Assembly: GCF_020447315.1 (NCBI RefSeq)
Contig: NZ_JAJADQ010000001.1
Coordinates: forward strand, 620,001 to 684,000
Direction of reading: 5' to 3'
From: Hymenobacter nitidus
Lineage (GTDB): Bacteria; Bacteroidota; Bacteroidia; Cytophagales; Hymenobacteraceae
Length of the DNA stretch: 64,000 nt
The notes below the pieces were generated by a model that was not told where the DNA came from, did no database searches, and was given only the letters and a program-made list of their open reading frames with translations. Positions 32,409 through 45,273 of the stretch are shown piece by piece. How positions within the stretch are numbered: the stretch's first letter is position 1; each line of letters opens with the position of its first letter. Position numbers and translations under genes: made by a program.

Positions 32409-33134
32409 ATGAAAAAACTCACCGTACTCCTCGCGCTTTCGCTTGGCAGCCTGTCTGCTTTCGCTCAGAACAATGACACTAACGGCCCTACCGGCCTGCG
32501 TTCCTCCACCGACTATGGCACCGGCACTTCCGACTCGCGCAACACGGGCTTCGGCATCAAGGGCGGCTTTAACCTGGCCGACGTGTATGGCGACGACAAA
32601 AAGAACTTTGGCAACGGCGGCAACTACAAGTCGTTCCACGCCGGTGTTTATGGCCAATACGGCTTCAACAACCGGCTTTCCATCCAGCCCGAGATACTCT
32701 ACAGCCGCCAGGGCTTCGAGGGGAACTCCACCAAAACCACCACTACCGGTACTAGCTCCACCCAGGTAACCGTGAGTGAGCGTCGCCTGGATTACCTGCA
32801 GGTTCCGGTGCTGCTCGTGTTCAACATTCTGGACAACGTGAGCATCCATGCCGGCCCCCAGGTTTCGCTGCTGACCAAAGTAATGGAAGACGGCAAGGAG
32901 CGTAAGATTGCCGACGAAAACAACGCGCACGGCTACAGCTACAGCAGCTTCGACTACGGCGTATCAGCCGGGGCTGAAGCCCGCGTAGGCCCCGCCCGCG
33001 TGGGTGCCCGCTACACGGCCGGCTTTGCCGACGTCATCAAGGACCAGAACCTGACGGCTACGGGCAACAAGGCGCTGAGCGACATCAGAAACAGTGTTTT
33101 CCAGGTCTACCTGGGCATTGGCTTCACCCAATAA
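32409..33134 (+). CDS. Outer-membrane beta-barrel protein, PorT-like
   Basis: 241 residues from the ATG at 32409, which opens a clear signal peptide (MKKLTVLLALSLGSLSAFAQ). The mature protein has alternating amphipathic strands starting GFGIKGGFNLADVYGDD, a 'FHAGVYGQYGFNNRLSIQPEILYSRQGF' hairpin, and closing strands ending VFQVYLGIGFTQ with a terminal aromatic-containing strand. This fits the PorT/OMP_b-brl_2 eight-strand barrel family common in Bacteroidota. Function unknown. Single gene followed by the terminator at 33163-33189. Confidence 0.85.
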   Translation: MKKLTVLLALSLGSLSAFAQNNDTNGPTGLRSSTDYGTGTSDSRNTGFGIKGGFNLADVYGDDKKNFGNGGNYKSFHAGVYGQYGFNNRLSIQPEILYSRQGFEGNSTKTTTTGTSSTQVTVSERRLDYLQVPVLLVFNILDNVSIHAGPQVSLLTKVMEDGKERKIADENNAHGYSYSSFDYGVSAGAEARVGPARVGARYTAGFADVIKDQNLTATGNKALSDIRNSVFQVYLGIGFTQ

Positions 33135-33162
33135 GCTCCGTTTGAGTGCTCATTTAAAACGA

Positions 33163-33189
33163 GGAAGTCTTTCGGGACTTCCTTTTTTT
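33163..33189 (+). terminator. Intrinsic terminator
   Basis: GGAAGTC pairs with GACTTCC, loop TTTCGG, followed by seven T. It lies 28 bp past the beta-barrel gene stop. Confidence 0.85.
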
Positions 33190-33212
33190 ATGGCTCCCTA
33201 TTCTGCCAACTC

Positions 33213-33743
33213 ATGCCCGTTTCCACCTTGTTTCCTCTGGCGTTGCTTGCTGATGCGCTGCCCGTGCTAAACCACAGCCGGGAGCTGATGGCCGAACAGG
33301 GCATGGCCGTGCTCGGCACCTGGGCGCTGCTGAATCTGCTGGTAAGCGGCTACTTGGTAACCAATACCGACGCACGCACCGAAAACCACTACTTCCACCA
33401 GATGAACGTGGGCTGGAACTTCGTGAATGCGGTGCTGGCCGTAGTAGGCATTCTGCGGGCCCATCCCAACCAGGTGGCGGGCCTCACGCTGGCGGCCAGC
33501 CTCACGGCCCAGTTCGACTTCGAGAAGATTCTGCTGCTCAACGTGGGTCTCGACGTGGCTTACCTGGTGACCGGCAGCTGGCTGCGCACCCGGGGCCTGA
33601 CGGCCGAAAAGCGGCCGGAGCGCCTGCTGGGCTTTGGCCGGTCGTTGTGGCTGCAGGGTGGGTTTCTGCTGGTTTTCGACGGGGCTTTTTACCTGCTTTA
33701 TCACCGCTTTGCCGCCCAGCTGCTGGCTTTGGTGCAGCCATAA
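33213..33743 (+). CDS. Four-helix integral membrane protein of unknown function
   Basis: 176 residues. Hydrophobic helices lie near 30-48 (MAVLGTWALLNLLVSGYLV), 68-82, 108-122 (LLLNVGLDVAYLVTGSW) and 143-165 (LWLQGGFLLVFDGAFYLLY). The linker between helices 1 and 2 contains a conserved-looking NTDARTENHYFHQMNVGWNF block with His and Asn. I do not recognise the family with certainty; similar small membrane proteins occur in Bacteroidota. It lies 16 bp upstream of a GNAT gene and probably shares its transcript. Confidence 0.65.
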   Translation: MPVSTLFPLALLADALPVLNHSRELMAEQGMAVLGTWALLNLLVSGYLVTNTDARTENHYFHQMNVGWNFVNAVLAVVGILRAHPNQVAGLTLAASLTAQFDFEKILLLNVGLDVAYLVTGSWLRTRGLTAEKRPERLLGFGRSLWLQGGFLLVFDGAFYLLYHRFAAQLLALVQP

Positions 33744-33759
33744 TTTTTCATCTTTGGGC

Positions 33760-34236
33760 ATGGATACTTTCACCGCCGCCGACCTTGAAATCATTGAGTA
33801 CGCGCCGCACTACCAGGAGGACTTTCGCCGCCTCAACCACGAGTGGATAACGCGCTACTTCGAGCTGGAGCCCGCCGACCACACCACGCTAGGCGACCCG
33901 CAAACCCACATTCTCTACCCCGGCGGCTTTATCCTGCTGGCCCGCTCCCAGGGCGCCATCGTGGGCACCGGGGCCTTGCTCCAAACCGCCGACGGCAGCT
34001 GGAAGCTGGCCAAAATGGCCGTCACGGCCCAGATGCAGGGCCGCGGCATTGGCTACAAGCTCTGTCAGGCCATTCTGGACCGCGCCCGGGCCCTGGGCGT
34101 CAAACGCGTCGAGCTGGTGTCGAACCGCACCCTGCTGCCGGCCCTGCACGTCTACCGCAAGCTGGGCTTCCAGGAAATTCCGCTGGGCACCGTTGCCTAC
34201 AAGCGCGGCGACATCAAGATGGCCGTGGAGCTATAA
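33760..34236 (+). CDS. GNAT-family N-acetyltransferase
   Basis: 158 residues from the ATG at 33760; the frame is open upstream only because it overlaps the previous gene in another frame. N-terminal YAPHYQEDFRRLNHEWI, a central GFILLARSQGAIVGTGAL strand pair, the acetyl-CoA loop MQGRGIGYKLCQAIL, and the C-terminal LHVYRKLGFQEIP unit are standard GNAT features. The substrate is unknown. The terminator at 34261-34291 ends the unit. Confidence 0.87.
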   Translation: MDTFTAADLEIIEYAPHYQEDFRRLNHEWITRYFELEPADHTTLGDPQTHILYPGGFILLARSQGAIVGTGALLQTADGSWKLAKMAVTAQMQGRGIGYKLCQAILDRARALGVKRVELVSNRTLLPALHVYRKLGFQEIPLGTVAYKRGDIKMAVEL

Positions 34237-34260
34237 CCCTCCATGCTACCAACCAAAAAA

Positions 34261-34291
34261 GGCCGCTGTCAGGGCTGACGGCGGCCTTTTT
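34261..34291. terminator. Bidirectional intrinsic terminator
   Basis: A 12-bp stem (GGCCGCTGTCAG with CTGACGGCGGCC, one G-T pair), with A-run to the left and T-run to the right. It separates the convergent GNAT and DJ-1 genes. Confidence 0.85.
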
Positions 34292-34312
34292 CAATGGGTT
34301 TGCCCGTAGTGG

Positions 34313-34885
34313 CTACGAGCGGGGGGCATGCTTGCCTTCCAGAATTTCCTCCACAATTTTCTTGTTGAAGGCGGGTAGGTCGCTGGGGTTGCGGCTGGTG
34401 ATGAGGCCCTTATCGACCACCACTTCACTGTCCTGCCACTGGGCGCCGGCGTTGGTGAGGTCGGTTTTCAGGCTGGGCCAGCTCGTTACGTTGTGGCCGC
34501 GCAGCAGGCCGGTTTCAATCAGCGTCCAGGGGCCGTGGCAGATGGCGGCCACCACTTTGCCCGAGCGCATAAACTCGGCGGCAAAGGCCACCACTTTCGG
34601 CTCGGTGCGCAGCACGTCGGGGTTCATCTGGCCGCCGGGCAGCACCAGCGCGTCGTAGTCGGCCACGCTCACCTCATCGATGGTTTTGTCCACCGACACT
34701 TTATTACCCCAGTCTTTCTCGTCCCAGCCCTTGATAGAGCCGCTTTTCAGGGAAATAACGTGGGTTTCGGCGCCTTCGCCTTCCAGGTACTTCTTAGGCT
34801 CTTCCAGCTCCGACTGCTCGAAGCCGTCGGTGGCTACAATGGCTATTTTCTTGCCTTTTAGTTTATCACTGCCAAAAATGCTCAT
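34313..34885 (-). CDS. DJ-1/PfpI family protein (YhbO-like)
   Basis: 190 residues. ICHGPWTLIE carries the reactive Cys of the nucleophile elbow with the adjacent His. FEQSELEEPKKYL near residue 20 supplies the Glu that pairs with it. DALVLPGGQMNPD is the family's central strand. Members act as general stress proteins and have been reported as proteases, glyoxalase III or deglycases, the last disputed. It is cytosolic and probably monocistronic. Confidence 0.9.
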   Translation of the reverse strand: MSIFGSDKLKGKKIAIVATDGFEQSELEEPKKYLEGEGAETHVISLKSGSIKGWDEKDWGNKVSVDKTIDEVSVADYDALVLPGGQMNPDVLRTEPKVVAFAAEFMRSGKVVAAICHGPWTLIETGLLRGHNVTSWPSLKTDLTNAGAQWQDSEVVVDKGLITSRNPSDLPAFNKKIVEEILEGKHAPRS

Positions 34886-34923
34886 GGGAATAGATGTTAG
34901 GGTTGGGTAGTAGAGTGAGAACG

Positions 34924-34957
34924 AAAAAGCCGGCCTGCGCTAGGCAGAACCGGCTTT
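34924..34957. terminator. Intrinsic terminator
   Basis: AAAAGCCGG and CCGGCTTTT pair around an inner GCCTGCGC-TAGGC hairpin, with A-rich and T-rich flanks. It lies between the DJ-1 gene and the thioesterase gene (both minus) and stops the thioesterase transcript. Confidence 0.75.
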
Positions 34958-34983
34958 TCTAGTACGGATATAGCAGCGCCGAG

Positions 34984-35508
34984 TTACTCGTCGTCCTGCC
35001 CGGCCCGGTCGCGCTTGAGCTGCTTGCGCAGGCGCTTCACCCGGTCGTCGAAACCGTCGGGGTCGTAGCTCACGTCTTCCACGTCGAGCTGGTCGAGTAA
35101 ATCCATCAGGGCGTCGGTGTGGTCGGTGCGGGTGGCGCTGGCCACGCGCACAAAAGCCATTTCCGACCACAGCACCGACTTCAGCCTTTGCCCGTCCTCG
35201 CTGAGCATCTGCATTTCCACCACCAGGTTGGAGTTGTCGAAATGAATGAGCTGGGTGCGGATGCGCACGGTTTCGCCGTGGTTGGCGGGGCGCAGGTAGG
35301 CAATATGGTGCTTGGTAATGACCCAGCCCGCGCCCTGCTCCTGCGCCATCTGGCCCAGATTTAGGGCGTAGTGCTCGGTGGTGTGGTCTTCGCGGGCATT
35401 GAGGAAGTAGTCGAGGTAGCGGGCGTTGTTGAGGTGGCCCAGCATGTCGCAGTCCTGGAAATGAATGCGGTAGGTGGTTTCGGGCGTTTGCAGCGGCTTG
35501 GCGGCCAT
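34984..35508 (-). CDS. Acyl-CoA thioesterase, 4HBT hotdog family
   Basis: 174 residues. HFQDCDMLGHLNNARYLDYF matches the 4-hydroxybenzoyl-CoA thioesterase pattern in which the Asp near the start of the hotdog helix attacks the thioester. ITKHHIAYLRPANHGETVRI is the second conserved strand pair. The last 40 residues are charged and may be a disordered tail. It would hydrolyse cytosolic acyl-CoAs; chain specificity is unknown. About 63 bp separate it from the DUF3616 gene upstream on the same strand. Confidence 0.87.
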   Translation of the reverse strand: MAAKPLQTPETTYRIHFQDCDMLGHLNNARYLDYFLNAREDHTTEHYALNLGQMAQEQGAGWVITKHHIAYLRPANHGETVRIRTQLIHFDNSNLVVEMQMLSEDGQRLKSVLWSEMAFVRVASATRTDHTDALMDLLDQLDVEDVSYDPDGFDDRVKRLRKQLKRDRAGQDDE

Positions 35509-35571
35509 AGGGGTGGCAATTGGTAGAACAGAGGGGCAAAGTAAGCGGATACGGCGCAGATGCGCGGCCGG

Positions 35572-36672
35572 CTAGTCCGGCAGCCGGAAAGCATCGGCCC
35601 GTACCTGGTGGGCAGCGGGCTTGCGGGCGTCGCTGGGGCTGTCGAATACTATCAGAATGTGGTTGTCGTCGGCCATGCCCATGCCTTCGGCCCGGTCTTT
35701 CCCGGCGGTGGGTCCGTGGCCGTGGGGCACGTCGAAGAGGCGGCGGATTTTGTCGGGGCCAATCAGGCTGTCGGTTTCCTGCTTCAGAGCATCGGGCCAG
35801 CAGTACACGGCAATGGTGCCGTCCAGGTCCATGGTGGGACCGGCCAGCAGGTAGAGGTCGTGGCCCGACTGGCGCAACTCGCGCAGGCCCATGCCGCCCA
35901 GGTCCAGGAAGTGCTTTTTGTAGTACTTCTGCTCGCCCCCGATTTTGCTCAGGCGCAGGCGGCCGTGCTTGTCCAGCTCGGGCAGCAGCTCCAGCACCAC
36001 GGCCCATCCCCGCAGCACCGGGCCGCGCAGGCCCACGAACAGGCGGCCGTCGGTGGTGGCAGCCAGGCCCTCAATATCGAAGCCGTTGTCTTTGCCGGGC
36101 AGCTTCATGAAAGGCTTCAGATGCGGATCTTCGGCCAGCAGGTCGGTCAGCTCGTTGGTTTCGGTGCTGCCGTGCAGCTGGGCGGCCTGCAGCAGTTCGT
36201 TGGCTTTGGTGGGGTGCGGGGCCGTTTTGTGCAGCTCATAGTCACCGGTTTTCTCGTTCAGCACCAGCGGAATGCGGGCCAGCAGGTAGCGGTTAGGGTC
36301 ACTTTCCACCTTGGCCAGCTTGGCAATCTGCTTGGCTACATCCTCGTGCTCGTGGTTGGGCTTCTTGCGCTTGAGGCTGTGCGAGCCAATCACCCAGAGG
36401 TAGTGGTCGGCTTCGGCCAGGCCTTCAATGTCAATTTCACTGCCGTCGTCGGCGGGCAAATCGAGCAGTTCGGCCAGCTGGTAGGATACGTGCTGGCCGA
36501 ACTCGTGGGGGCCCGTCAGCCGCAGCCGCTCGATGCTGGTGCGCTCGTCGCAGCTCAGCCAGAGGTTGTCGCCGGTGCGCAGCACCGTGGAAAGGCCGTC
36601 GCGCACGTGCTTGCCGTCGGCATTAAGGCTGAGCTTGGGGGCAAACTGCAGGGTGTAGGGTTGAGGACGCAT
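35572..36672 (-). CDS. DUF3616 family protein
   Basis: 366 residues without a signal peptide. It starts directly with a beta-propeller-like strand pattern. IDIEGLAEADHYLWVIGSHSLKRKKP, DIEGLAATTDGRLFVGLRGPVLRGWAVV and LAGPTMDLDGTIAVY are typical DUF3616 segments, repeating an 'IEGL' motif. The family is uncharacterised. Some members sit with phosphatases or esterase-like phytase propellers. Possibly co-transcribed with the thioesterase. Function unknown. Confidence 0.8.
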   Translation of the reverse strand: MRPQPYTLQFAPKLSLNADGKHVRDGLSTVLRTGDNLWLSCDERTSIERLRLTGPHEFGQHVSYQLAELLDLPADDGSEIDIEGLAEADHYLWVIGSHSLKRKKPNHEHEDVAKQIAKLAKVESDPNRYLLARIPLVLNEKTGDYELHKTAPHPTKANELLQAAQLHGSTETNELTDLLAEDPHLKPFMKLPGKDNGFDIEGLAATTDGRLFVGLRGPVLRGWAVVLELLPELDKHGRLRLSKIGGEQKYYKKHFLDLGGMGLRELRQSGHDLYLLAGPTMDLDGTIAVYCWPDALKQETDSLIGPDKIRRLFDVPHGHGPTAGKDRAEGMGMADDNHILIVFDSPSDARKPAAHQVRADAFRLPD

Positions 36673-36976
36673 CTATAGTGTGGGAGTAAGTAAGGGCAGA
36701 GAACAGAACGCAAACGGCCCAACCCGCGCAGGGTTGGGCCGGCTTTGCAGCGGGGCCCCGGCAGGCAGGCCGCCGACAGTAGATTCAGTGCTGGCACGGA
36801 TAGTTTACCCGCAGTAAATCGAAACCTTGAGGAGAAGTGGCCCGGCTCATAGTCAGCCTTTTACCAGTGGGGCCGCCAGCCGAGCCGCCCAGGCCCGGGA
36901 GTAGGCGCCGGCAGTTTCCGGCTGAGTACTGACGCACGGAATGGTCTGTTAGGTAACACCTTTTCGGGTATGCCGC
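36673..36976. other. Divergent intergenic region upstream of the KAP cassette
   Basis: 304 bp. A hairpin at about 36715-36738 (GGCCCAACCC with GGGTTGGGCC) lacks a T-run. The rest shows no gene and no full TAnnTTTG match toward the plus-strand cassette. Confidence 0.5.
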
Positions 36977-38368
36977 ATGAGTAGCTCACCGCCTGAAGAT
37001 TGGGGCGCCAATTTGGATGATTTGGCCAACGAACACCGCAACCTAAGGGCGCGGGTGCCTCTGCTCTTGCTGCTCGGCACCTTGCTGCTGCTGCCGTTGC
37101 TGTGGGGCTGGCTTACGCGGCCCACCCGCAGCCTGCTCACCGGCTACCAATTTCGGCAAGTGGGCGTACGGGCCGATTCGACCCGGTGGATTCTGGCTCA
37201 CCAAAACGCCAAGGCTGTACTGCTGTTCAACCCCGCCGATACCAGTCAGGGGTGGCAGCGGCGCGAGCTGGGCGTGGCGGCCGCCGGGGCCCAGCACCTG
37301 GCCCTGGACTGGGGCGGCAAAGCCCTGCTAGTGGGCAGCAACGGCGCTGTGCAGGTATATGACTCCCTGTTGCAGCCCATTCCGGCACTGGACACTACGC
37401 TTACTTCCTGGCCACGACAGATGCGTCCTAAAATGCCTCAACTTCCAAAGCAGCCAGGGCCGCTGCCCGCGCAGTTAGTAGTAGCAGACCCAACCGGCAA
37501 CTGCGCTGTTATTGTGGGTATGCATGGGGAGGTCTACGCAACGGGTGACGGCGGCCGGTTTTGGAACCGATGGAACTATCCGGGTGCTTCCGCCCGATCG
37601 GACACCGATACTGTTAGAGCAGCGGTGTACGCAGGACTTCAGCCTTATATTAATACGTCCTGGACGTCGTCAGTGGAGCCCAATAGCCGCTTCCCGAGCT
37701 TTTATTTGGCTACGGCTCAAGGCTACTATACTTTGTATCTATACCAAGGTTATCTGGACTCCGAAGTACGGATTTCCGCTCCGGGCGAATCTTTCACGCA
37801 GTGGAAAGCCGCGCTACCAGCAACAGTGGCGTGGTGCGGAATTGCTGCTAAAAACAATCTACTCGCCATTGACCGGCGCGGCAACTGGGCCAGCATAGAC
37901 ACGGCCGGCACGGATGAAGGCGCCGGAGAGTTCTTCCGCCGTACGGTGTCGGTGATGCCGCTTGATAGCAACGGCAACTTCCTGGGGGTTGGTTCTGAGG
38001 AGCTGTTTCAACACCGTGTGGTCGGTTTTACGACGAGCAAAAAACAGCGGGTGTCCATTGGCGCGCCGCAGCCAGCCAGAATACCTAAGCCAACCGCCGC
38101 AGCCAGGAAAGCTACCAGCCGCGCCTCGGCTAAGCAGACCAAGACGACTACGCCCGTTCGCAACCCGACCAAAAAAGCATCGGCCACGAAAAAAACACCC
38201 CGCCCCCCATTGGAGGTAATCTATACCCAGCCGCAGGAACCCGCTCCTAAGCAACAGGAACAGCCGGTGCCGGCCAAGCAATCCGATTACCCGGTTTATC
38301 AGCAGCAGCAGCAAACAAACAAGGAGCCTAGCCCCAAGCCGGGCCAGGACAAACCCAGGCCCCAGTAG
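36977..38368 (+). CDS. Membrane-anchored Asp-box protein, first gene of the KAP cassette
   Basis: 463 residues. One transmembrane helix (about 27-46, PLLLLLGTLLLLPLLWGW) after a short acidic N-terminus predicts a type II or III anchor. The soluble part to about 370 is strand-rich with propeller-like WILAHQNAKAVLLF, LALDWGGKALLVGS and ADPTGNCAVIVG units. An Asp box TGDGGRFW (189-196, S/T-x-D-x-G-x-x-W) recalls BNR/Ycf48-like propellers. From 370 on it is a low-complexity Lys/Pro/Gln/Thr tail. No family was recognised. It is separated by 17 bp from the KAP NTPase gene. The stretch 37560-37840 looks less GC-rich than its flanks. Confidence 0.6.
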   Translation: MSSSPPEDWGANLDDLANEHRNLRARVPLLLLLGTLLLLPLLWGWLTRPTRSLLTGYQFRQVGVRADSTRWILAHQNAKAVLLFNPADTSQGWQRRELGVAAAGAQHLALDWGGKALLVGSNGAVQVYDSLLQPIPALDTTLTSWPRQMRPKMPQLPKQPGPLPAQLVVADPTGNCAVIVGMHGEVYATGDGGRFWNRWNYPGASARSDTDTVRAAVYAGLQPYINTSWTSSVEPNSRFPSFYLATAQGYYTLYLYQGYLDSEVRISAPGESFTQWKAALPATVAWCGIAAKNNLLAIDRRGNWASIDTAGTDEGAGEFFRRTVSVMPLDSNGNFLGVGSEELFQHRVVGFTTSKKQRVSIGAPQPARIPKPTAAARKATSRASAKQTKTTTPVRNPTKKASATKKTPRPPLEVIYTQPQEPAPKQQEQPVPAKQSDYPVYQQQQQTNKEPSPKPGQDKPRPQ

Positions 38369-38385
38369 AGCTACCGACAACTGCC

Positions 38386-39702
38386 ATGAAAAGCATTCCC
38401 CTCTATCAGGCCGAACCGCCCTTGCTGCCCACCTGGCTGTATTACTTGGCGGCGGCGCTACTCGCGTGGACCATCTATGTGCTCTGGCTGTCATTCAAAC
38501 TAGGACAGCTACGGCGAGCCAGTGAGCGGCAGCACCGGAATGCGGCGAACAAAACGGCCACCGAATCGGCGGCCGGCCAGCCCGATCAGCCCTCCGACAT
38601 CGATGAGCTTCAGCTGGGTGTGGCCCCCGTGCTGGTCGGCCTGCTCACGCACCCACTCACCAACGAGCCCTATACCATTGCGCTATCGGGTGGCTGGGGC
38701 TCGGGCAAAAGCTCGGTTATGCGGCAGATTGAGAAGCAGCTGCGCCAACGGCGGGTTTCCTTCAAGTCCGTGCATATCAATGTGTGGCACTTTCAGCAGG
38801 AAGACCAGCTGCTGACCGAGTTTCTGCGCCGCATCCTGAATAAGTGCGACACGTTCTGGTTCCGCTTTCGGCAGGTGCGCCACAACCTGAGCCATCTGGG
38901 CTTCGGCCGCACGCTCTACCGCGCCACCATGCTGGCCCTGGTGCTGCCCGCGCTGCTGCTGCTGGCCTGGGTGCTGCTGCGCGATGCCGCCCAGTATATC
39001 AGCGCCAATCAGATCCTAAACAGCTATTCCGACGTGGGCCACCGCGTGCTGCAGGACTTCCGCACCAGCGACCTGGGCCTTTGGCTGGCCAAGGTGTTCA
39101 AGGCCCCTTTCTACGTAATCCGGCATCTGCGCCAGGCCCTGTCCGATACGGAGGTGAAAGCTCCCGGTCTGCTGGCCATCGTTACGCTGGCCGGGTCGGT
39201 ACTGGCATCATTATATAAGCTGCCCGAGCTGCTACGCCCCCTGGTCCAGCTTATTCCCTACCAGCAGCAGTACGAAGTAGCCCAAGGGCAGGCCAGCTTC
39301 CGGCAACGCTACCAAGACGATTTCAGCAACATCATCCGCCACGCCAAGAATGAAACGCTGATCATCTTTGTCGATGACATCGACCGGATTTCCGGAGCCC
39401 GGGTACTGGAGCTGCTCGAAACGCTCAACTTCATCGTCACCAGTGCCCAGGACCGGCGGGGTGGCGGGGCCCTGGGAGCCAAGCTCTATTTTGTGCTGGC
39501 CATGAATGTGCCCGAAGTAGTGCGGGTGCTGGGCCCCGTGCTCGACACCCAGCAGCACCTCAAGCCGGAGGCCGCCCAGCAGCTAGCCGCCAACTACCTC
39601 TCCAAGCTGGTTGATTTGACCGTCAATATTCCCAGCCTGCAGGGCCGCGACATTAGCTCACTCTACGTACTAAAGCCGGCCGCGCAAGCCGCCAGCGTCT
39701 GA
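38386..39702 (+). CDS. KAP-family P-loop NTPase, membrane bound, C-terminally short
   Basis: 438 residues. N-terminal helix about 16-38; Walker A GGWGSGKSS at 102-110; INVWHFQQED at 131-140, the KAP 'W-x-F/Y' block; two further hydrophobic helices inserted near 180-200 and 262-280; Walker B LIIFVDDIDRI at 325-335; LYFVLAMNVPEVVR sensor-like strand at 367-380. This order with an inserted membrane hairpin is the KAP NTPase signature. The protein stops about 60 residues after the sensor, without the C-terminal helical region that usually carries a P-R-x-I-K-R-F motif. That motif occurs in the next gene. Some KAP NTPases (PifA) act in phage exclusion. Confidence 0.85.
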   Translation: MKSIPLYQAEPPLLPTWLYYLAAALLAWTIYVLWLSFKLGQLRRASERQHRNAANKTATESAAGQPDQPSDIDELQLGVAPVLVGLLTHPLTNEPYTIALSGGWGSGKSSVMRQIEKQLRQRRVSFKSVHINVWHFQQEDQLLTEFLRRILNKCDTFWFRFRQVRHNLSHLGFGRTLYRATMLALVLPALLLLAWVLLRDAAQYISANQILNSYSDVGHRVLQDFRTSDLGLWLAKVFKAPFYVIRHLRQALSDTEVKAPGLLAIVTLAGSVLASLYKLPELLRPLVQLIPYQQQYEVAQGQASFRQRYQDDFSNIIRHAKNETLIIFVDDIDRISGARVLELLETLNFIVTSAQDRRGGGALGAKLYFVLAMNVPEVVRVLGPVLDTQQHLKPEAAQQLAANYLSKLVDLTVNIPSLQGRDISSLYVLKPAAQAASV

Positions 39703-39706
39703 AATC

Positions 39707-40717
39707 ATGGCTAACATTCCCAAACAGCCAGTTGGCCACACGCGCCCCGACCGGCTCTGGCGCTGGCTGCAGCCGCACGTGAGTTCCGTCGGCCGCGGGG
39801 CCGCAGAGTGGTTTGGCTTTGGCGCGGGCCTGGTGCTGGGCGTGCTGCTGGCCTTCGTCGTCTACGCCGGGTTGCAGCCCCGCGTGCAGCAGAGCCTGGA
39901 GGCCCAGGAAAAGGCAAAAGCCAAGGAATCAGCCCCTCAGGACGAGAAAACAGATGCTATCCGACCACTAAAAACTGCCCCGGCGGCCGCGGCCGGGCCA
40001 GCGGCACGCCAGGCCACGCCGGTGCCCGTTTCCACAGCCGTGCCTGCGGCGGCCCCGCCCACCGTTTCGGGCCGACCAGCAGTGGCCACCGCGGCGCGCC
40101 TCACTCGCCTGGCGCCCTCGTCTACCAGCGGCCCAGCCCGCCAGAGTTGGCCGGCCCTGCTGGCGGCAGCTATTTCGGCGGCGCTGGTGGCCGGCTTTGC
40201 CGCCCTGTATCAGTCCCGCCGGTGGCCACAGCCGGATATAGTGAAATCCCGAGTGCTGGAAGCCCTGCTAACGCTGCAGGCCCACCAACACATGCAGCAG
40301 CGCCTGGGCATGACGCCCCGCCAGATCAAGCGTTTCAATAGCAAAGCCCGCGTGCAGCACAGCCAGCTGCAAGCCCTGGCCCAGGCTACGGGTAAAGGCG
40401 GCACGCCCCCCATGGCCTTTCCCATCAGCTGCCAGATTCAGGCCTTTCAGCTGTTACTGGTGATAGAGGAAAGCCGCCCGCAGCGCAGCAACTTCATGCG
40501 CGTTGCTCCCGACGAATTTAAGCGCCAGTTGCTAAAGGCGTATCAAAACCATGTTGATCTGACCCGGGCCCGCCAGGAAGCGCAGGGCAGCTCGACCTTT
40601 ACCGACGGCCTGGACAACAGCCTTATCCAGAACTTCATCAAGCTTGATCAGGAGGCGCAGATCAAGCCTGAATTATTGGGTCATTTGTACGAGATGAACG
40701 TCGGACTCTTGGCGTAA
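39707..40717 (+). CDS. Membrane protein with KAP lid-like motif, third gene of the cassette
   Basis: 336 residues. Helix 1 at about 37-55 (FGAGLVLGVLLAFVVYAG), an Ala/Pro/Thr-rich low-complexity stretch about 65-145, helix 2 at about 149-168, then a helical cytosolic domain. TPRQIKRFNSKARV at 203-216 resembles the (N/S)PRxIKRFLNxxR motif near the C-terminus of KAP NTPases, absent from the neighbour gene. The rest (SCQIQAFQLLLVIEE, APDEFKRQLLKAYQNHVD) fits the winged or helical end of such proteins. It starts 4 bp after the KAP stop in another frame. It may be the detached regulatory lid of the NTPase (inference). Confidence 0.6.
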   Translation: MANIPKQPVGHTRPDRLWRWLQPHVSSVGRGAAEWFGFGAGLVLGVLLAFVVYAGLQPRVQQSLEAQEKAKAKESAPQDEKTDAIRPLKTAPAAAAGPAARQATPVPVSTAVPAAAPPTVSGRPAVATAARLTRLAPSSTSGPARQSWPALLAAAISAALVAGFAALYQSRRWPQPDIVKSRVLEALLTLQAHQHMQQRLGMTPRQIKRFNSKARVQHSQLQALAQATGKGGTPPMAFPISCQIQAFQLLLVIEESRPQRSNFMRVAPDEFKRQLLKAYQNHVDLTRARQEAQGSSTFTDGLDNSLIQNFIKLDQEAQIKPELLGHLYEMNVGLLA

Positions 40718-40723
40718 CACCAT

Positions 40724-40786
40724 GGCAAGACGATGCCCCCGGCCGCGCGCCACGAAATGCAGCGCGGCCGGGGGCATCGTCTTGCC
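40724..40786. terminator. Long perfect hairpin between convergent genes
   Basis: 25-bp perfectly complementary arms (40724-40748 and 40762-40786) with a 13-nt loop, very GC-rich, no T-run. It sits 6 bp after the cassette and 14 bp before the adaptor gene end, so it probably stops both transcripts. Confidence 0.65.
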
Positions 40787-40799
40787 TGGAACCGTATAT

Positions 40800-42029
40800 T
40801 TAGTCTTTCTTCTCGCCTTCGGCGGGCGGGCCGAGCACCTTCACCTTGTCGGTTTTGGTCAGGCCCGACAGCACCTCCACGTTGATACCGTCGGAAAGGC
40901 CGGTTTTGATCAGGCGCTTCTGAAACTGCTGGGGCGCGGTTTCGACCTCCACAAACACGCTGTCCTTGTTGACTTTCCCGAACTGCAGCAGGCTTTCCCG
41001 GATGGCCAGCACCTGGCTGCGGCGGCCCAGCACGATGTCGCCGTTGGCCGAGTAGCCGGCCCGCAGAAACTGCCCGGGCTTAAGGCGCACGTTGGCCCGC
41101 ACCTGAAACTTGATGGCGCCTTCCTCCGTGATACCCTTGGGAGCAATGTATTCGAGCGTGGCCGGGAAGTTCTCGCCTTCCAGCGCCCCCACGGTCAGGT
41201 TCAGGTCCATGCCTTCGCGCACCTTGCCCACTTCGCTTTCGTCGACTTTACCTTCAAACACGAGGCTTTTCATATCGGCAATGGCGGCAATGGTAGTTCC
41301 CTCGTTGAAGTTGTTGCGCTCTACTACCGACGAGCCGACCTTGATGGGCACATCCAGCACTAGGCCCGTGATGGTGGAGCGCACGGTGTTGGAAGCGCCG
41401 CCGGTGTTGCGCGAGGCGCCGCGCTGGGCAATCTGCAAGTCGTTCTGGGCCGCGTCGAGGGCCTGCTTTTTGGCGCGCACATCGGCCAGCAGGCGGTTAA
41501 ATTCCTGCTCGGCAATGACTTTTTGCTCGAACAAGGGCCGCTGCCGGTCCAGCTCCACCTGGGAGGTTTCCAGGGCTACGCGGGCCGCCTGAATGTTGTT
41601 CTGGGCGTTGTTTACGTTGGCCGCGTTAGCCACCGTACGGATGCGGGCAATAAGCTGGCCTTCCTTAATCGGCTCCCCGGCCTCCACGAACAGCTCCTCC
41701 ACGATGCCCGACACCTGGGGCTTGATCTGCACCTCGCGGCGCGGTACGATGCTGCCCGTGGCCACCGTTTTCTTCACGATGTCGGTCAGGAAGGGCGTTT
41801 CGGTCTTGTAGGTAACGGGGTTGGTGTGGGCCTGCTTCCAGAAGTAGTTGGCCAGCCAGCCGAAACCGGCCAGCAGCAGCAGCACCAGAATGCCGAGGAA
41901 AATTCGTTTCATGGTAATTAACGGTGGTTTGGGCGGCTGATACGGCGCCTGATAGTCGTGGGGCATGCGCGCCGGAGCCGTCAGGGGCTCCACTTCGACA
42001 GCTTCGTCTGGCAGTGCTTGGTTGTTCAT
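40800..42029 (-). CDS. Periplasmic adaptor of a MacAB/RND-type efflux system
   Basis: 409 residues from ATG 42029; an ATG at 41912 (MKRIFLGILVLLLLAGFG) would remove a proline-rich 39-residue N-terminus and place the membrane anchor first. I cannot choose between them. Order: anchor helix, barrel-sandwich half (VATGSIVPRREVQIKPQVSG), coiled-coil hairpin (about 125-215), second lipoyl half, beta barrel, and membrane-proximal domain. This is the HlyD/MacA membrane-fusion architecture. It is the last gene of the minus-strand export operon and would bridge the two permeases to an outer-membrane channel encoded elsewhere. Confidence 0.9.
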   Translation of the reverse strand: MNNQALPDEAVEVEPLTAPARMPHDYQAPYQPPKPPLITMKRIFLGILVLLLLAGFGWLANYFWKQAHTNPVTYKTETPFLTDIVKKTVATGSIVPRREVQIKPQVSGIVEELFVEAGEPIKEGQLIARIRTVANAANVNNAQNNIQAARVALETSQVELDRQRPLFEQKVIAEQEFNRLLADVRAKKQALDAAQNDLQIAQRGASRNTGGASNTVRSTITGLVLDVPIKVGSSVVERNNFNEGTTIAAIADMKSLVFEGKVDESEVGKVREGMDLNLTVGALEGENFPATLEYIAPKGITEEGAIKFQVRANVRLKPGQFLRAGYSANGDIVLGRRSQVLAIRESLLQFGKVNKDSVFVEVETAPQQFQKRLIKTGLSDGINVEVLSGLTKTDKVKVLGPPAEGEKKD

Positions 42030-42060
42030 GGCCGGGCCCTTGCGGGGTTAGTGTGAAATG

Positions 42061-42161
42061 GTGATTTAGTGATTTAGCGACTTAGTGAGTTCGATGTCTG
42101 AGAAGAGCAAAACCAGGCGATTTAAACGACAACTCACTAAGCCGCTAAATCGCTAAGCCAC
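42061..42161. repeat. Inverted 8-nt-period repeat between permease and adaptor genes
   Basis: Left copy 42061-42091 and inverted right copy 42131-42161 match at 27 of 31 positions. Each is built of 8-nt units like CACTAAGT-CGCTAAAT. A third copy lies at 45297-45328 in the same operon. Confidence 0.7.
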
Positions 42162-42164
42162 TGA

Positions 42165-43406
42165 TTATTCGTCTTTAAGAGCTACCACGGGCTGCACCCG
42201 GGCGGCAATGGCGGCCGGCACCAGGCCGGCCACGCCGCCGGCTACCACCAGCAGCACCACGGCCGTGAGGGCCACGCCCAGATCTACCTGTGGATTGGCG
42301 AAGAAGCCCACGTCCTGCCCGGCAATCATAGAATTGATGCCCGCCATCAGGGCCGTACCGCACAGCAGCCCGATCAGGCCGGCGGCGGCGGTAATGACGA
42401 TGCTTTCCTGCACAATCAGGCTGATAATGCTCCAGGGAGTAGCGCCCAGGGCCTTGCGAATGCCGATTTCCTTGGTGCGCTCCTTCACCACGATGAGCAT
42501 GATGTTGCTCACCCCGATGATGCCGGCCAGAATGGTACCGATGCTGACCAGCCAGCTGAAGCCCGAAATGCCGGTAAACAGGCCCTGCACCCGCTCGAAC
42601 TCCTCTTCCACGTTGGCCGAGCCAAAGGCCCGGTCGTCGGTGGGCGCCACTTTGTGCTGCCGGGCCAGCAGCTGCTTCACCTTGGTTTCGACCACGGCGG
42701 CCGGAATACCGGGCTTGGGAATGAAGGCGAAGTAGCCCACCTTGTTTACCTGGTTGAAGGTAACCTGCAGGGCCGTAAGCGGAATCATGATGGTCTGGGC
42801 GTCCTGCTGGGCATTTTCAGGCTTGCCCTCGGCCTTGAACAAGCCCACCACCCGGAAGAAAATGCCCTTGATGCGGATTTCCTTACCTAGCGGGTTGTCG
42901 GTGCCGAAGAGCACCTCGGCTACCCGGTCGCCGATGACGGCCACCTTGCGCCGCTCGTCGATGTCGATGTCGTTGATGAAGCGGCCAGAGGTCAGGTGCA
43001 GGGCCTTTACGGCGGGGTAGCCGGGGTATTCGCCGTTCACCGTGAAAGCCGAGCTTTTGGTGCCGTACTGTACTGTGAAAGCACCGTCGAGGGAGCCGCG
43101 GGGCAGCACGAAAGCCGCCTCGGGGACTTCGCGCAGCAGGGCCGCCACGTCGTCGTTGGTAAACTGAATGAAGCGGCCCACCTTGAGGCCGGCGTAGGGC
43201 ACGCTGGTGCGCTGACTCCAGACGAACACGGCGTTTTTGGCCACGTCAAATTCTCTTTCGACCCCGTTGCGGAAGCCTTTGCCCGAGCCCAGCAGCACCA
43301 CGAGCATGAAAATTCCCCAGAACACGCCAAACGCCGTGAGCCCCGTGCGCAGCTTATGCCGCCGCACCGTGCTCCAGATTTCGCTCCATTTGTCGAGGTC
43401 AAACAT
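42165..43406 (-). CDS. ABC transporter permease, MacB/FtsX type
   Basis: 413 residues. N-terminal helix after IWSTVRRHKLRTGLTAFGVFWGIFML, a large periplasmic domain (about 50-280), then three helices with the coupling segment KERTKEIGIRKALGATPWSI and VPAAIAARVQPVVALKDE at the end. This is the MacB_PCD plus FtsX layout, but without an ATPase domain, which is supplied in trans by the gene at 45324. It is paralogous to the 413-residue permease 14 bp upstream. The two likely form a heterodimer that drives periplasmic export by mechanotransmission. Confidence 0.92.
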   Translation of the reverse strand: MFDLDKWSEIWSTVRRHKLRTGLTAFGVFWGIFMLVVLLGSGKGFRNGVEREFDVAKNAVFVWSQRTSVPYAGLKVGRFIQFTNDDVAALLREVPEAAFVLPRGSLDGAFTVQYGTKSSAFTVNGEYPGYPAVKALHLTSGRFINDIDIDERRKVAVIGDRVAEVLFGTDNPLGKEIRIKGIFFRVVGLFKAEGKPENAQQDAQTIMIPLTALQVTFNQVNKVGYFAFIPKPGIPAAVVETKVKQLLARQHKVAPTDDRAFGSANVEEEFERVQGLFTGISGFSWLVSIGTILAGIIGVSNIMLIVVKERTKEIGIRKALGATPWSIISLIVQESIVITAAAGLIGLLCGTALMAGINSMIAGQDVGFFANPQVDLGVALTAVVLLVVAGGVAGLVPAAIAARVQPVVALKDE

Positions 43407-43420
43407 TGGGCAAAGAATAG

Positions 43421-44662
43421 TTAGTCAGCGCGTAAGGCTTCAATGGGTTTCACGTTGGCGGCTTTCATGGCCGGAATCAGGCCGGCCACGGCCCCGGAGA
43501 TGACCAGCAGCAGCGTCGCACTCACGGCCACGCTGAGGTTGACTTCCGGGTGGTCGAAATACGAGGATGAGCCGCCGGCTTTTTCGAGCATGTAGCGCAC
43601 AAAATCCAGCAGGGCCACGCCAAACAGCAGCCCCAGGTAGCCCGAGAAGCTGGTGATGACCACCGACTCCTGCACAATCATGCTGATGATGCTCCAGGGC
43701 GTGGCGCCCAGGGCCTTGCGCACCCCGATTTCCCGGGTCCGCTCCTGCACGATGATGAGCATGATATTGCTCACGCCCACCACACCGGCCACCAGGGTCA
43801 GCACTCCGATAACACTCACAAACAGCTTGATACCGGTAAACAGGCCCTCAAACCGCTTCACTTCCTCCTCGTTGTTGTCCAGCTCCAGAGCCTGCTTGTC
43901 GGCCGGGTCGAACTGGTGGCGGCGGGCCAGCAGCGTCCGCACCTGGTCTTCGAGCTGCTTTACGGGCGTGCCCTTGGTGCTGCTGATGCCGATGCGCTGC
44001 ACCTGGTTGTACTGGTTGAACGTGGTCTGGAAGGTGCTGAAAGGCACGAAGGCCCGCTCCTCGTTGCGGCCGTTGTTGCCGGTGTGGGTGAAGATGCCAA
44101 CGACTTTGAAGAAAACACCCTTCACCTGCACGTACTGCCCAATGGCCGGGGCGTCGCCGAACAGCACCTTGCGCACCTTCTCCCCCATGATCATCACTTT
44201 GCGCCGCTCGATGCCATCCAATGGACTCAGCAGGCGGCCCTGGGTGAGTTTTTCGCCGTTAAGCTGAAAGAACTCGGCCGTGGCGCCAAACACCTGGTAG
44301 GAGCCGTTCTTGGTTTTGTTCACGATGGTGTACTCGCCAAACAGGCGGTTGCGCGAGGCCAGCAGCTCCACGCCATCTACCTGGTGGCGAATGGCTTCCA
44401 GATCGTCGTTGGTAAACTTCAGCTCCCGGCCCGGTTTCAGACCCTGCCACGGCAGGGAGGTTTTGCCCGCACTCACAAACAGGCTGTTCATGGCCCCGCC
44501 GCCAAACTCTTTCCAGATGCCGTTCTCGATACCCTTGCCCGCACCCAGCAGCAGCACTAGCATGAAGATGCCCCAAAACACCCCGAAAGCCGTCAGAAAC
44601 GTGCGCAGCTTGTTGCGGCGCATGGTTCCTAGGATTTCCTGCCATTTGTCGAGGTCAAACAT
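43421..44662 (-). CDS. ABC transporter permease, MacB/FtsX type (paralog)
   Basis: 413 residues, same architecture as its neighbour: EILGTMRRNKLRTFLTAFGVFWG N-terminal helix, periplasmic domain, then QERTREIGVRKALGATPWSI and IPAMKAANVKPIEALRAD. The periplasmic parts differ markedly while the membrane parts stay alike, so the pair arose by duplication and probably forms the two non-identical halves of one exporter. It is separated by 14 bp from the next permease. Confidence 0.92.
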   Translation of the reverse strand: MFDLDKWQEILGTMRRNKLRTFLTAFGVFWGIFMLVLLLGAGKGIENGIWKEFGGGAMNSLFVSAGKTSLPWQGLKPGRELKFTNDDLEAIRHQVDGVELLASRNRLFGEYTIVNKTKNGSYQVFGATAEFFQLNGEKLTQGRLLSPLDGIERRKVMIMGEKVRKVLFGDAPAIGQYVQVKGVFFKVVGIFTHTGNNGRNEERAFVPFSTFQTTFNQYNQVQRIGISSTKGTPVKQLEDQVRTLLARRHQFDPADKQALELDNNEEEVKRFEGLFTGIKLFVSVIGVLTLVAGVVGVSNIMLIIVQERTREIGVRKALGATPWSIISMIVQESVVITSFSGYLGLLFGVALLDFVRYMLEKAGGSSSYFDHPEVNLSVAVSATLLLVISGAVAGLIPAMKAANVKPIEALRAD

Positions 44663-44670
44663 GGATTTCT

Positions 44671-44707
44671 AATGTGCTGATGTGAAGAATGTGGGCAATG
44701 TGCTAAT
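44671..44707. repeat. AATGTG-rich imperfect repeat, copy B
   Basis: Repeats of AATGTG spaced by CTG, AAG, GGGC and similar, just upstream of the permease ATG. A similar stretch (copy A) lies at 281-317 behind the HMA-like gene. Confidence 0.5.
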
Positions 44708-44772
44708 GGGGGAAGGCAGTTGAGATGGGTAATATGCTGCTGGTAAAATGTGACAGGCTACTATCCTCACTC

Positions 44773-45273
44773 TTATTCTCTGCAGCTGTTTCGCAGTTTC
44801 TCCAGGCGGCGCACCACGTCTTTCACCGTGGCCTCACTGCTGGTATAAAGCGGCAGCTCGAAGGTGATGTTGCTGCCCTTTCTGCTCTTGCTGATTTTAA
44901 TCTGGTAGTGCTGCTGCCCGTCGTCGTTGGTGGCCGGCGCATACGTCAGGGCCTGCACATCGGCCCAGTCGAAGCTCATCTTTAGCTCGAAAAAGCCGTC
45001 GGCCATGCGCATGGCCCAGCCCCCGGAGTCGCCGCCCCCGTAGCTCATGGCCAGCGGCTTGCTCATCTGTACCTCCGCGCCCCGGTCCCGGATGATCTGC
45101 TCGGCGTGGCAGCCTCTCAGGGCCAGATGCACGTCCTGCTTGGGCTTTTTGGGGTCCTGCATCAGCTGGTCGAGCTGCTGCATCAGAGCCTGCTGCTCGG
45201 CCGCCGCGGTTTGGGCCTGACTGACGGTAACAGTACTGCCAACCAGCAGCCCAGCAAAAAGGAAGGTCTTCAT
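44773..45273 (-). CDS. Exported protein of unknown function inside the export operon
   Basis: 166 residues with a signal peptide (MKTFLFAGLLVGSTVTVSQAQ). The mature part begins with a Gln-rich helix, then RGCHAEQIIRDRGAEVQM, a GGGDSGGW turn and beta strands (FFELKMSFDWADVQALTYAP, YQIKISKSRKGSNITFELPLY). It ends in a charged helix with a Cys near the C-terminus (LRNSCRE). Two cysteines could form a disulphide. No family recognised. Its place between ATPase and permease genes suggests a periplasmic accessory or a chance insertion. Confidence 0.65.
   Translation of the reverse strand: MKTFLFAGLLVGSTVTVSQAQTAAAEQQALMQQLDQLMQDPKKPKQDVHLALRGCHAEQIIRDRGAEVQMSKPLAMSYGGGDSGGWAMRMADGFFELKMSFDWADVQALTYAPATNDDGQQHYQIKISKSRKGSNITFELPLYTSSEATVKDVVRRLEKLRNSCRE

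Follow-up and report, generated by a model that had tools for sequence, protein, structure and literature searches.

The DNA analysed here is a stretch of 64,000 nucleotides from Hymenobacter nitidus (NCBI RefSeq assembly GCF_020447315.1, contig NZ_JAJADQ010000001.1, positions 620,001 to 684,000 of the forward strand), referred to below as the window, whose own numbering is used for all coordinates unless another locus is named. A sequence-only reading had proposed that it carries a cassette of three genes built around a KAP P-loop nucleoside triphosphatase (NTPase), and the locus bears on the question how KAP NTPases with membrane segments inside the ATPase domain turn recognition into an outcome. 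The three plus-strand open reading frames (ORFs) were confirmed at the positions listed below, with intergenic gaps of 17 and 4 bp, and the membrane segments claimed for each of them were found by hydropathy analysis, namely one, three and two in genes 1, 2 and 3, respectively.

36977..38368, plus strand: gene 1, ORF of 463 amino acids (aa), predicted extracytoplasmic beta-propeller with a low-complexity tail
38386..39702, plus strand: gene 2, ORF of 438 aa, KAP NTPase core ending before the C-terminal lid segment
39707..40717, plus strand: gene 3, ORF of 336 aa, membrane protein with a lid-like segment

An inserted cassette of three genes

The gene order 1-2-3 is kept in H. citatus BT507 (G092) and H. 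cavernae (G080), so that the partners co-occur, as had been supposed, and this recurrence is more than chance. The cassette, counted by near full-length matches to the gene 3 family profile, is present in 3 of 120 genomes of the genus, which are the window's own (G000), G092 and G080; three further genomes with weak gene 3 profile matches containing internal stops were left out of the count. The gene 2 proteins of G092 and G080 are 63% and 38% identical to that of the window, respectively. A long gene 2 match was obtained in the same three of 390 genomes of the order, seven others giving matches to the P-loop region only, and among 395 genomes of the phylum a long match was obtained in the window's own genome and partial matches in 10 others; the order and phylum samples overlap.

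The flanks of the cassette were surveyed with the DUF3616 gene on the left (E ≤1e-20) and the HlyD-type gene on the right (E ≤1e-60), both of which were found in 20 genomes of the genus including the window's. These two genes lie 4130 bp apart in the window. Among the 19 relatives possessing both, the distance is 87-252 bp in 12, and in the other 7 the genes are far apart or on different contigs. The boundaries were mapped by aligning positions 33001-45000 of the window by blastn with 10 of the 12 empty-site loci. In 7 of these 10 loci the left homology stops at 36741-36748 and the right homology restarts at 40800-40807, and in the other 3 the corresponding positions are 36671-36672 and 40804-40806. 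The sequence-only reading had held that conserved flanks with no presence/absence variation would make a mobile system unlikely; such variation was found, in the form of the empty sites in relatives. The boundary features are as follows.

36742..40799, no strand: inserted stretch of about 4.06 kb, from blastn against relatives with an empty site
36715..36741, no strand: left hairpin following the DUF3616 gene, recognised by eye in 7 of 10 cassette-free relatives, part of the host flank
40724..40786, no strand: right hairpin after gene 3, with perfect 25-bp inverted-repeat arms, inside the inserted stretch, terminator-like

The cassette had also been described as bounded by a hairpin, and the two hairpins near its ends differ in origin. 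The right hairpin lies within the insert, and no such inverted repeat could be made out by eye in the spacers of the ten empty-site loci. The left hairpin belongs to the flank and must be host DNA, because it is present in seven of the ten relatives lacking the cassette. In one empty-site genome (G026, locus L067) the spacer is 252 bp long and contains an inverted-repeat-like sequence by eye; since this spacer is longer and inverted-repeat-like, further small insertions may be accepted at this intergenic position.

The H. citatus copy, together with two genes preceding it, is flanked by an S66 peptidase gene and an alpha/beta-hydrolase gene that looks homoserine-acetyltransferase-like by eye. 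The S66 gene of G114 is 91% identical to that of H. citatus; in G114 the frames of the same two flanking genes lie 34 bp apart (by eye), and the gene 3 profile, run against the genus genomes, gave no match there. The genes flanking the H. citatus copy are not adjacent in G068, which leaves G114 as the sole empty site for this locus. Since the window site and the H. citatus site differ and each has relatives in which it is empty, there are two different insertion sites, each empty in close relatives. For the G080 copy, the DUF4269 neighbour is 41-49% identical in 9 of 58 relatives, with no match reported in the rest. The locus is a real, rare, inserted three-gene membrane cassette.

A KAP core in gene 2 and a lid-like segment in gene 3

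The assignment of gene 2 to the KAP P-loop NTPases was borne out by Pfam (KAP_NTPase, PF07693), with 79.7 bits against a cut-off of 20. The match covers positions 8-234 of the 293 positions of the profile, and a canonical KAP of the same genome matches positions 3-290, a span including its PRLAKR motif. Gene 2 has membrane segments at residues 18-36, 180-198 and 259-277 (hydropathy), of which the last two form a membrane hairpin between Walker A and Walker B. The motifs on which the following analysis turns are these.

38689..38712, plus strand: Walker A GGWGSGKS, gene 2 residues 102-109; W104 to M112 are invariant in the three-genome alignment
39367..39384, plus strand: Walker B FVDDID, gene 2 residues 328-333; intact in the three-genome alignment and motif scan
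40316..40336, plus strand: lid-like motif PRQIKRF, gene 3 residues 204-210; from family alignment and profile comparison

The names used here follow an analogy: both the word 'lid' and the nucleotide-sensing role attached to it come from AAA+ ATPases. In canonical KAPs (the 12 listed of 18), a '[FY]L.K' element is followed at a distance of 46-134 residues by a segment of the form [NTS]PRxx[KI]R. Gene 2 stops 34 residues past its '[FY]L.K' element, and a C-terminal PRxxKR lid segment in the same chain is not found in it; this criterion is our own, drawn from the canonical KAPs compared here, and is not a published membership rule. As the lid segment is absent from its chain, we class gene 2 as a KAP core and not as a complete KAP NTPase. 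When a protein database was searched with the gene 2 profile, 21 matches were obtained among the 7999 best candidates scored. Of these, 19, among them the protein of the window, are stand-alone proteins of 411-489 aa, and two, P0030 and P0031, are longer. The lid motif is missing and Walker A and Walker B are intact in all 19 stand-alone proteins.

Gene 3 has membrane segments at residues 38-56 and 150-168 with a Pro/Ala-rich linker between them, followed by a predicted helical domain (hydropathy and structure model). It has no Pfam match and no PADLOC match, and its family profile found no match among solved structures. It carries the sequence TPRQIKRF where a predicted helix starts, and the consensus of the KAP lid is NPRxxKRF. 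Residues P204, R205, Q206, K208 and R209 are invariant in all seven aligned members of the gene 3 family, whose identity to the window protein goes down to 26%. The pattern PR.[IVL]KR[FYLM] was confined to gene 3 homologues and canonical KAPs among 1619 ORFs, a partly redundant set drawn from the window, from the loci and from the family of gene 3. In the structure model of gene 3, a helix begins at residue 204, the first residue of the motif, and a long helix stands on either side of a disordered linker.

The similarity was then measured with profiles. A lid hidden Markov model built from 20 canonical KAPs was run against 1612 ORFs and the 7 members of the gene 3 family. Six members ranked next after the KAP ORFs, with E of 0.04-0.22 and one noise ORF among them, and the seventh, from G080, scored 3.8 bits, under a second noise ORF. 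Comparison of the lid and gene 3 profiles by hhalign gave P of 2.3e-4, a score of 32.5 and a probability of 44% (57.5% in the other direction), and the controls reached at most 20.2 in 100 column shuffles and 12.4 for the reversed alignment. Repeating it with a second alignment gave P of 2.6e-4 and a probability of 42.5%. The profile comparison modestly supports the lid match of gene 3. A single ATPase seems to be divided between genes 2 and 3, because gene 2 is without the lid segment and gene 3 quite probably supplies it, to judge from motif and profiles.

Full-length KAPs of two genomes elsewhere in the phylum (L049 and L050, also as L057 and L058) have a long low-complexity insert between the core and the lid segment, together with an N-terminal extension of about 300 residues in L049 and L050. 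The insert sits where gene 2 stops, which argues that the split site tolerates interruption. A motif scan had suggested that L049 and L050 were lid-less fusions; this was rejected, as they carry a divergent lid, NPRQLIR, after the long insert.

Gene 1 has one N-terminal membrane helix (hydropathy) and a low-complexity tail. The claim of an Asp-box propeller-like protein stood in part: two Asp-box-like hairpins are present in gene 1, and the propeller fold is predicted from a low-confidence model only (mean predicted local distance difference test score, pLDDT, 44.2). Pfam BNR (best E 0.026) and PSII_BNR (best E 0.048) gave weak matches, each in 2 of 4 members of the gene 1 family; P0001 itself matched neither, and the sequence cut-off of YCF48/PSII_BNR was not reached. 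The structural matches of the model, which we take to be beta-propellers, include four YCF48 entries, and many non-YCF48 propellers score within 1 Z unit. Gene 1 is likely, on the model, to be a YCF48-like propeller outside the membrane. It differs from the known YCF48/Asp-box propellers in its weak Pfam match (2 of 4 members, none in P0001), its membrane anchor and its adjacent ATPase.

The two longer relatives of gene 2 place other parts in the same chain as a KAP core. In P0030 (793 aa), two membrane segments separated by about 330 residues precede a KAP core without lid motif. In P0031, an Asp-box stretch (PSII_BNR E 0.0099) is followed by a membrane segment and then by a KAP core; its lid motif is absent, but it was not counted as lid-less because its end looks frameshifted by eye. 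A search for P0030 in 395 genomes of the class gave only the window's own gene, and the plasmid collection gave none. By analogy, these layouts would fit genes 1 and 2 acting together. Two scores tell against that link: the N-terminal part of P0030 aligned with gene 1 with a score of 17.9, which is not significant (best of 60 shuffles, 23.3), and that of P0031 with 23.7 (shuffles, 23.0), through one Asp-box hairpin. As similarity to gene 1 beyond one Asp-box hairpin is not clear for either N-terminal part, the two proteins were dropped as fusion proof of a linkage between genes 1 and 2 and kept as an analogy only.

Possible function of the cassette

The explanation that we favour is a KAP ATPase split over two genes, the lid being provided in trans, which together with an outward-facing propeller would serve as an envelope-sensing switch, probably against phages; taken as a whole, it has in our judgement an even chance of being right. 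The propeller of gene 1, anchored in the membrane, is predicted to face outside, and the C-terminal helices of gene 3 are predicted to face the cytoplasm, where the segment of gene 3 would dock on gene 2 as a lid and supply residues reading the bound nucleotide. What the propeller senses may be an event at the envelope, for instance an adsorbing phage, damage or protein misassembly. Sensing would unite the two halves or rearrange them and so complete the active site; ATP would then be hydrolysed and the membrane complex would change state, giving a membrane-level response.

We suggest, more tentatively, that this may be the first membrane KAP ATPase made of two proteins, with hydrolysis gated by assembly and controlled by an outer propeller, and that it may work as a mobile anti-phage switch at the envelope. 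In the literature, no title or abstract among the matches listed was on a two-gene KAP ATPase, and no paper was found linking a KAP family NTPase with Hymenobacter; in the literature on lid domains, splits and AAA+ proteins, the term KAP family NTPase was absent among the matches listed. A nucleotide-sensing lid acting in trans within a membrane complex would, if true, be shown to be possible. Since core and lid would be separate proteins, the mechanism is directly testable, for the halves can be expressed, mixed and mutated separately.

A role of the cassette in anti-phage defence is plausible. We judge defence to be its likeliest use in view of its patchy distribution, its insertion and the precedents of Tmn, of KAP ATPases that stand in for STAND NTPases and of QatA. 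Tmn is described in PMC11846954 as a KAP-family NTPase with two transmembrane domains that inhibits phages, by a mechanism there called unexplored. Gene 2 is like it, by description only, in being a KAP NTPase with two predicted inserted membrane segments (plus one N-terminal segment), and the cassette differs from it in that the lid segment belongs to another gene and a propeller gene comes first. According to three papers (PMC8195603, PMC7159879, PMC10907252), conflict systems with trypsin-like effectors can have a KAP ATPase instead of a STAND NTPase. The likeness to these systems lies in the KAP ATPase and in a trypsin/S8 protease gene in the same inserted stretch in H. citatus; the difference is that no MoxR, vWA or STAND partner was found among the genes scanned with Pfam. 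MoxR and vWA had no match in the seven window genes and seven neighbour genes of G092 and G080 scanned, EAD models not being searched by name. QatA is the predicted KAP-family NTPase of qatABCD, and PMC13279940 states that it affects phage range and is not required for all defence. Gene 2 is locally similar to QatA and PifA over the P-loop region, with 50.8 bits (QatA) and 43.1 bits (PifA) in PADLOC. Both profiles are 593-720 positions long and gene 2 matches them in short pieces: the PifA match of 43.1 bits falls in two stretches, the best of them at 33-99 of 720, and full-length similarity is absent, while QatA in NCBIfam gave 60.1 bits against a cut-off of 600. No QatB, QatC or QatD was found among the neighbours scanned. 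Membership of Qat or PifA was rejected on score and partners.

Several results weigh against a defence role or a foreign origin. No NCBIfam cut-off was passed, and PADLOC matched short stretches of one gene only, so that the cassette would be an accessory system which the defence libraries used here reach in those stretches alone. The four flanking genes scanned with Pfam are ordinary, as the sequence-only reading had said of the surroundings. Its idea of a variable, defence-rich site accordingly stood in its first half, given the empty sites, and did not in its second for these four genes, the rest of the window not being scanned for defence genes. Gene 3 has no relatives in the viral contigs and gene 2 none in the plasmid collection, the collection of phage records not being searched. 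The insert, with a GC (guanine plus cytosine) content of 61.6% against 61.2-61.7% in its flanks, is not marked as foreign overall by its composition, and GC at third codon positions is 78.6% and 74.8% in genes 2 and 3. Gene 1 alone deviates, with 65.9% against 77.0-86.3% in six flanking genes.

The same split ATPase might instead organise or remodel the envelope, by stress sensing, receptor clustering or protein quality control, with no relation to phages, and be passed around as an accessory trait. YCF48 is an assembly factor, and its presence among the structural matches of gene 1 would suit such a role, as would the ordinary scanned genes on either side in the window and the peptidase genes that the H. 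citatus copy adjoins. We consider it rather unlikely: a rare, patchy presence (3 of 120 genomes) at different insertion sites suits accessory conflict genes better than housekeeping, and Tmn, in the excerpt cited above (PMC11846954), is a KAP protein with inserted membrane segments that acts against phages.

A different objection concerns the lid itself. Gene 3 could be an independent helical membrane adaptor whose PRQIKRF motif is a coincidental or local similarity, gene 2 working lid-free. The lid match is short (31-43 aligned columns), has an hhalign probability of 42-58% and carries its weight in one motif. Run against the whole genome at E ≤10, the lid profile picked up the canonical KAP and missed gene 3, and in the reverse search with the gene 3 profile a KAP came first outside the family, at E of 0.27, with noise ORFs between further KAPs. 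The lid asparagine N40, invariant in the canonical alignment, is out of register in gene 3, and the G080 copy has an alanine-serine stretch in its place. The model of gene 3 is weak (mean pLDDT 60.5), with low-Z helical structural matches only, and some of the 19 stand-alone gene 2 relatives are on short contigs, their completeness unchecked. All these points count against a lid in trans, and the short match with its hhalign probability, the whole-genome search and the low-confidence model speak for an adaptor. An adaptor is nevertheless improbable in our view, since the P, R, Q, K and R of the motif stay invariant while identity in the family drops to 26%, and since the motif is the very piece that gene 2 lacks and was found in no other non-KAP protein among the 1619 ORFs. 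That gene 2 is a decaying, truncated KAP pseudogene beside two unrelated genes, or a truncation artefact, as a C-terminus shorter than in canonical KAPs might suggest, is hardly credible and was rejected: all 19 stand-alone members terminate in a common region and keep both Walker motifs, a conserved truncated form that contradicts decay, and the three-gene order is moreover retained at 38% identity.

The H. citatus protease/M19-like pair and neighbouring genes

Co-inserted with the cassette in H. citatus are genes for a trypsin/S8 subtilase protein of 970 aa and an M19-like protein of 571 aa, which recur as a conserved two-gene module.

L024:4924-9652 (H. citatus): protease and M19-like module
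L118:7844-12569: the same module
L119:5806-10474: the same module

Close relatives of the M19-like protein were found in 3 of 96 genus genomes, namely H. citatus, G140 (75%) and G041 (50%), with weak partial matches in three more. A similar protease ORF lies beside the M19-like gene in G140 and G041 (by eye). The contexts differ: the KAP cassette is the neighbour in one case and amidase-like ORFs (by eye) in another, and in G041 a type IIG restriction gene lies about 3.4 kb beyond the pair. The window genome has no relative of the H. citatus M19-like protein at E of 1e-10, and no such protease ORF was seen by eye around the window cassette or in 20 kb of G080. Since the pair occurs in other contexts in G140 and G041, it is a module of its own that can travel with the cassette and is not part of the window's system. 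It is possibly a protease-based conflict module in its own right.

Near the G140 pair (L118:3421-4290 and L118:12607-14608), inspection by eye showed an ORF of IS3-like integrase type, a membrane protein and an amidase-like ORF whose end is peptidoglycan-binding-like. In the window, two minus-strand ORFs of 413 aa each, in tandem downstream of the HlyD-type gene (42165-44662), are ABC-transporter permease-like by eye and are partly similar to each other in DNA, as blastn cross-matches showed.

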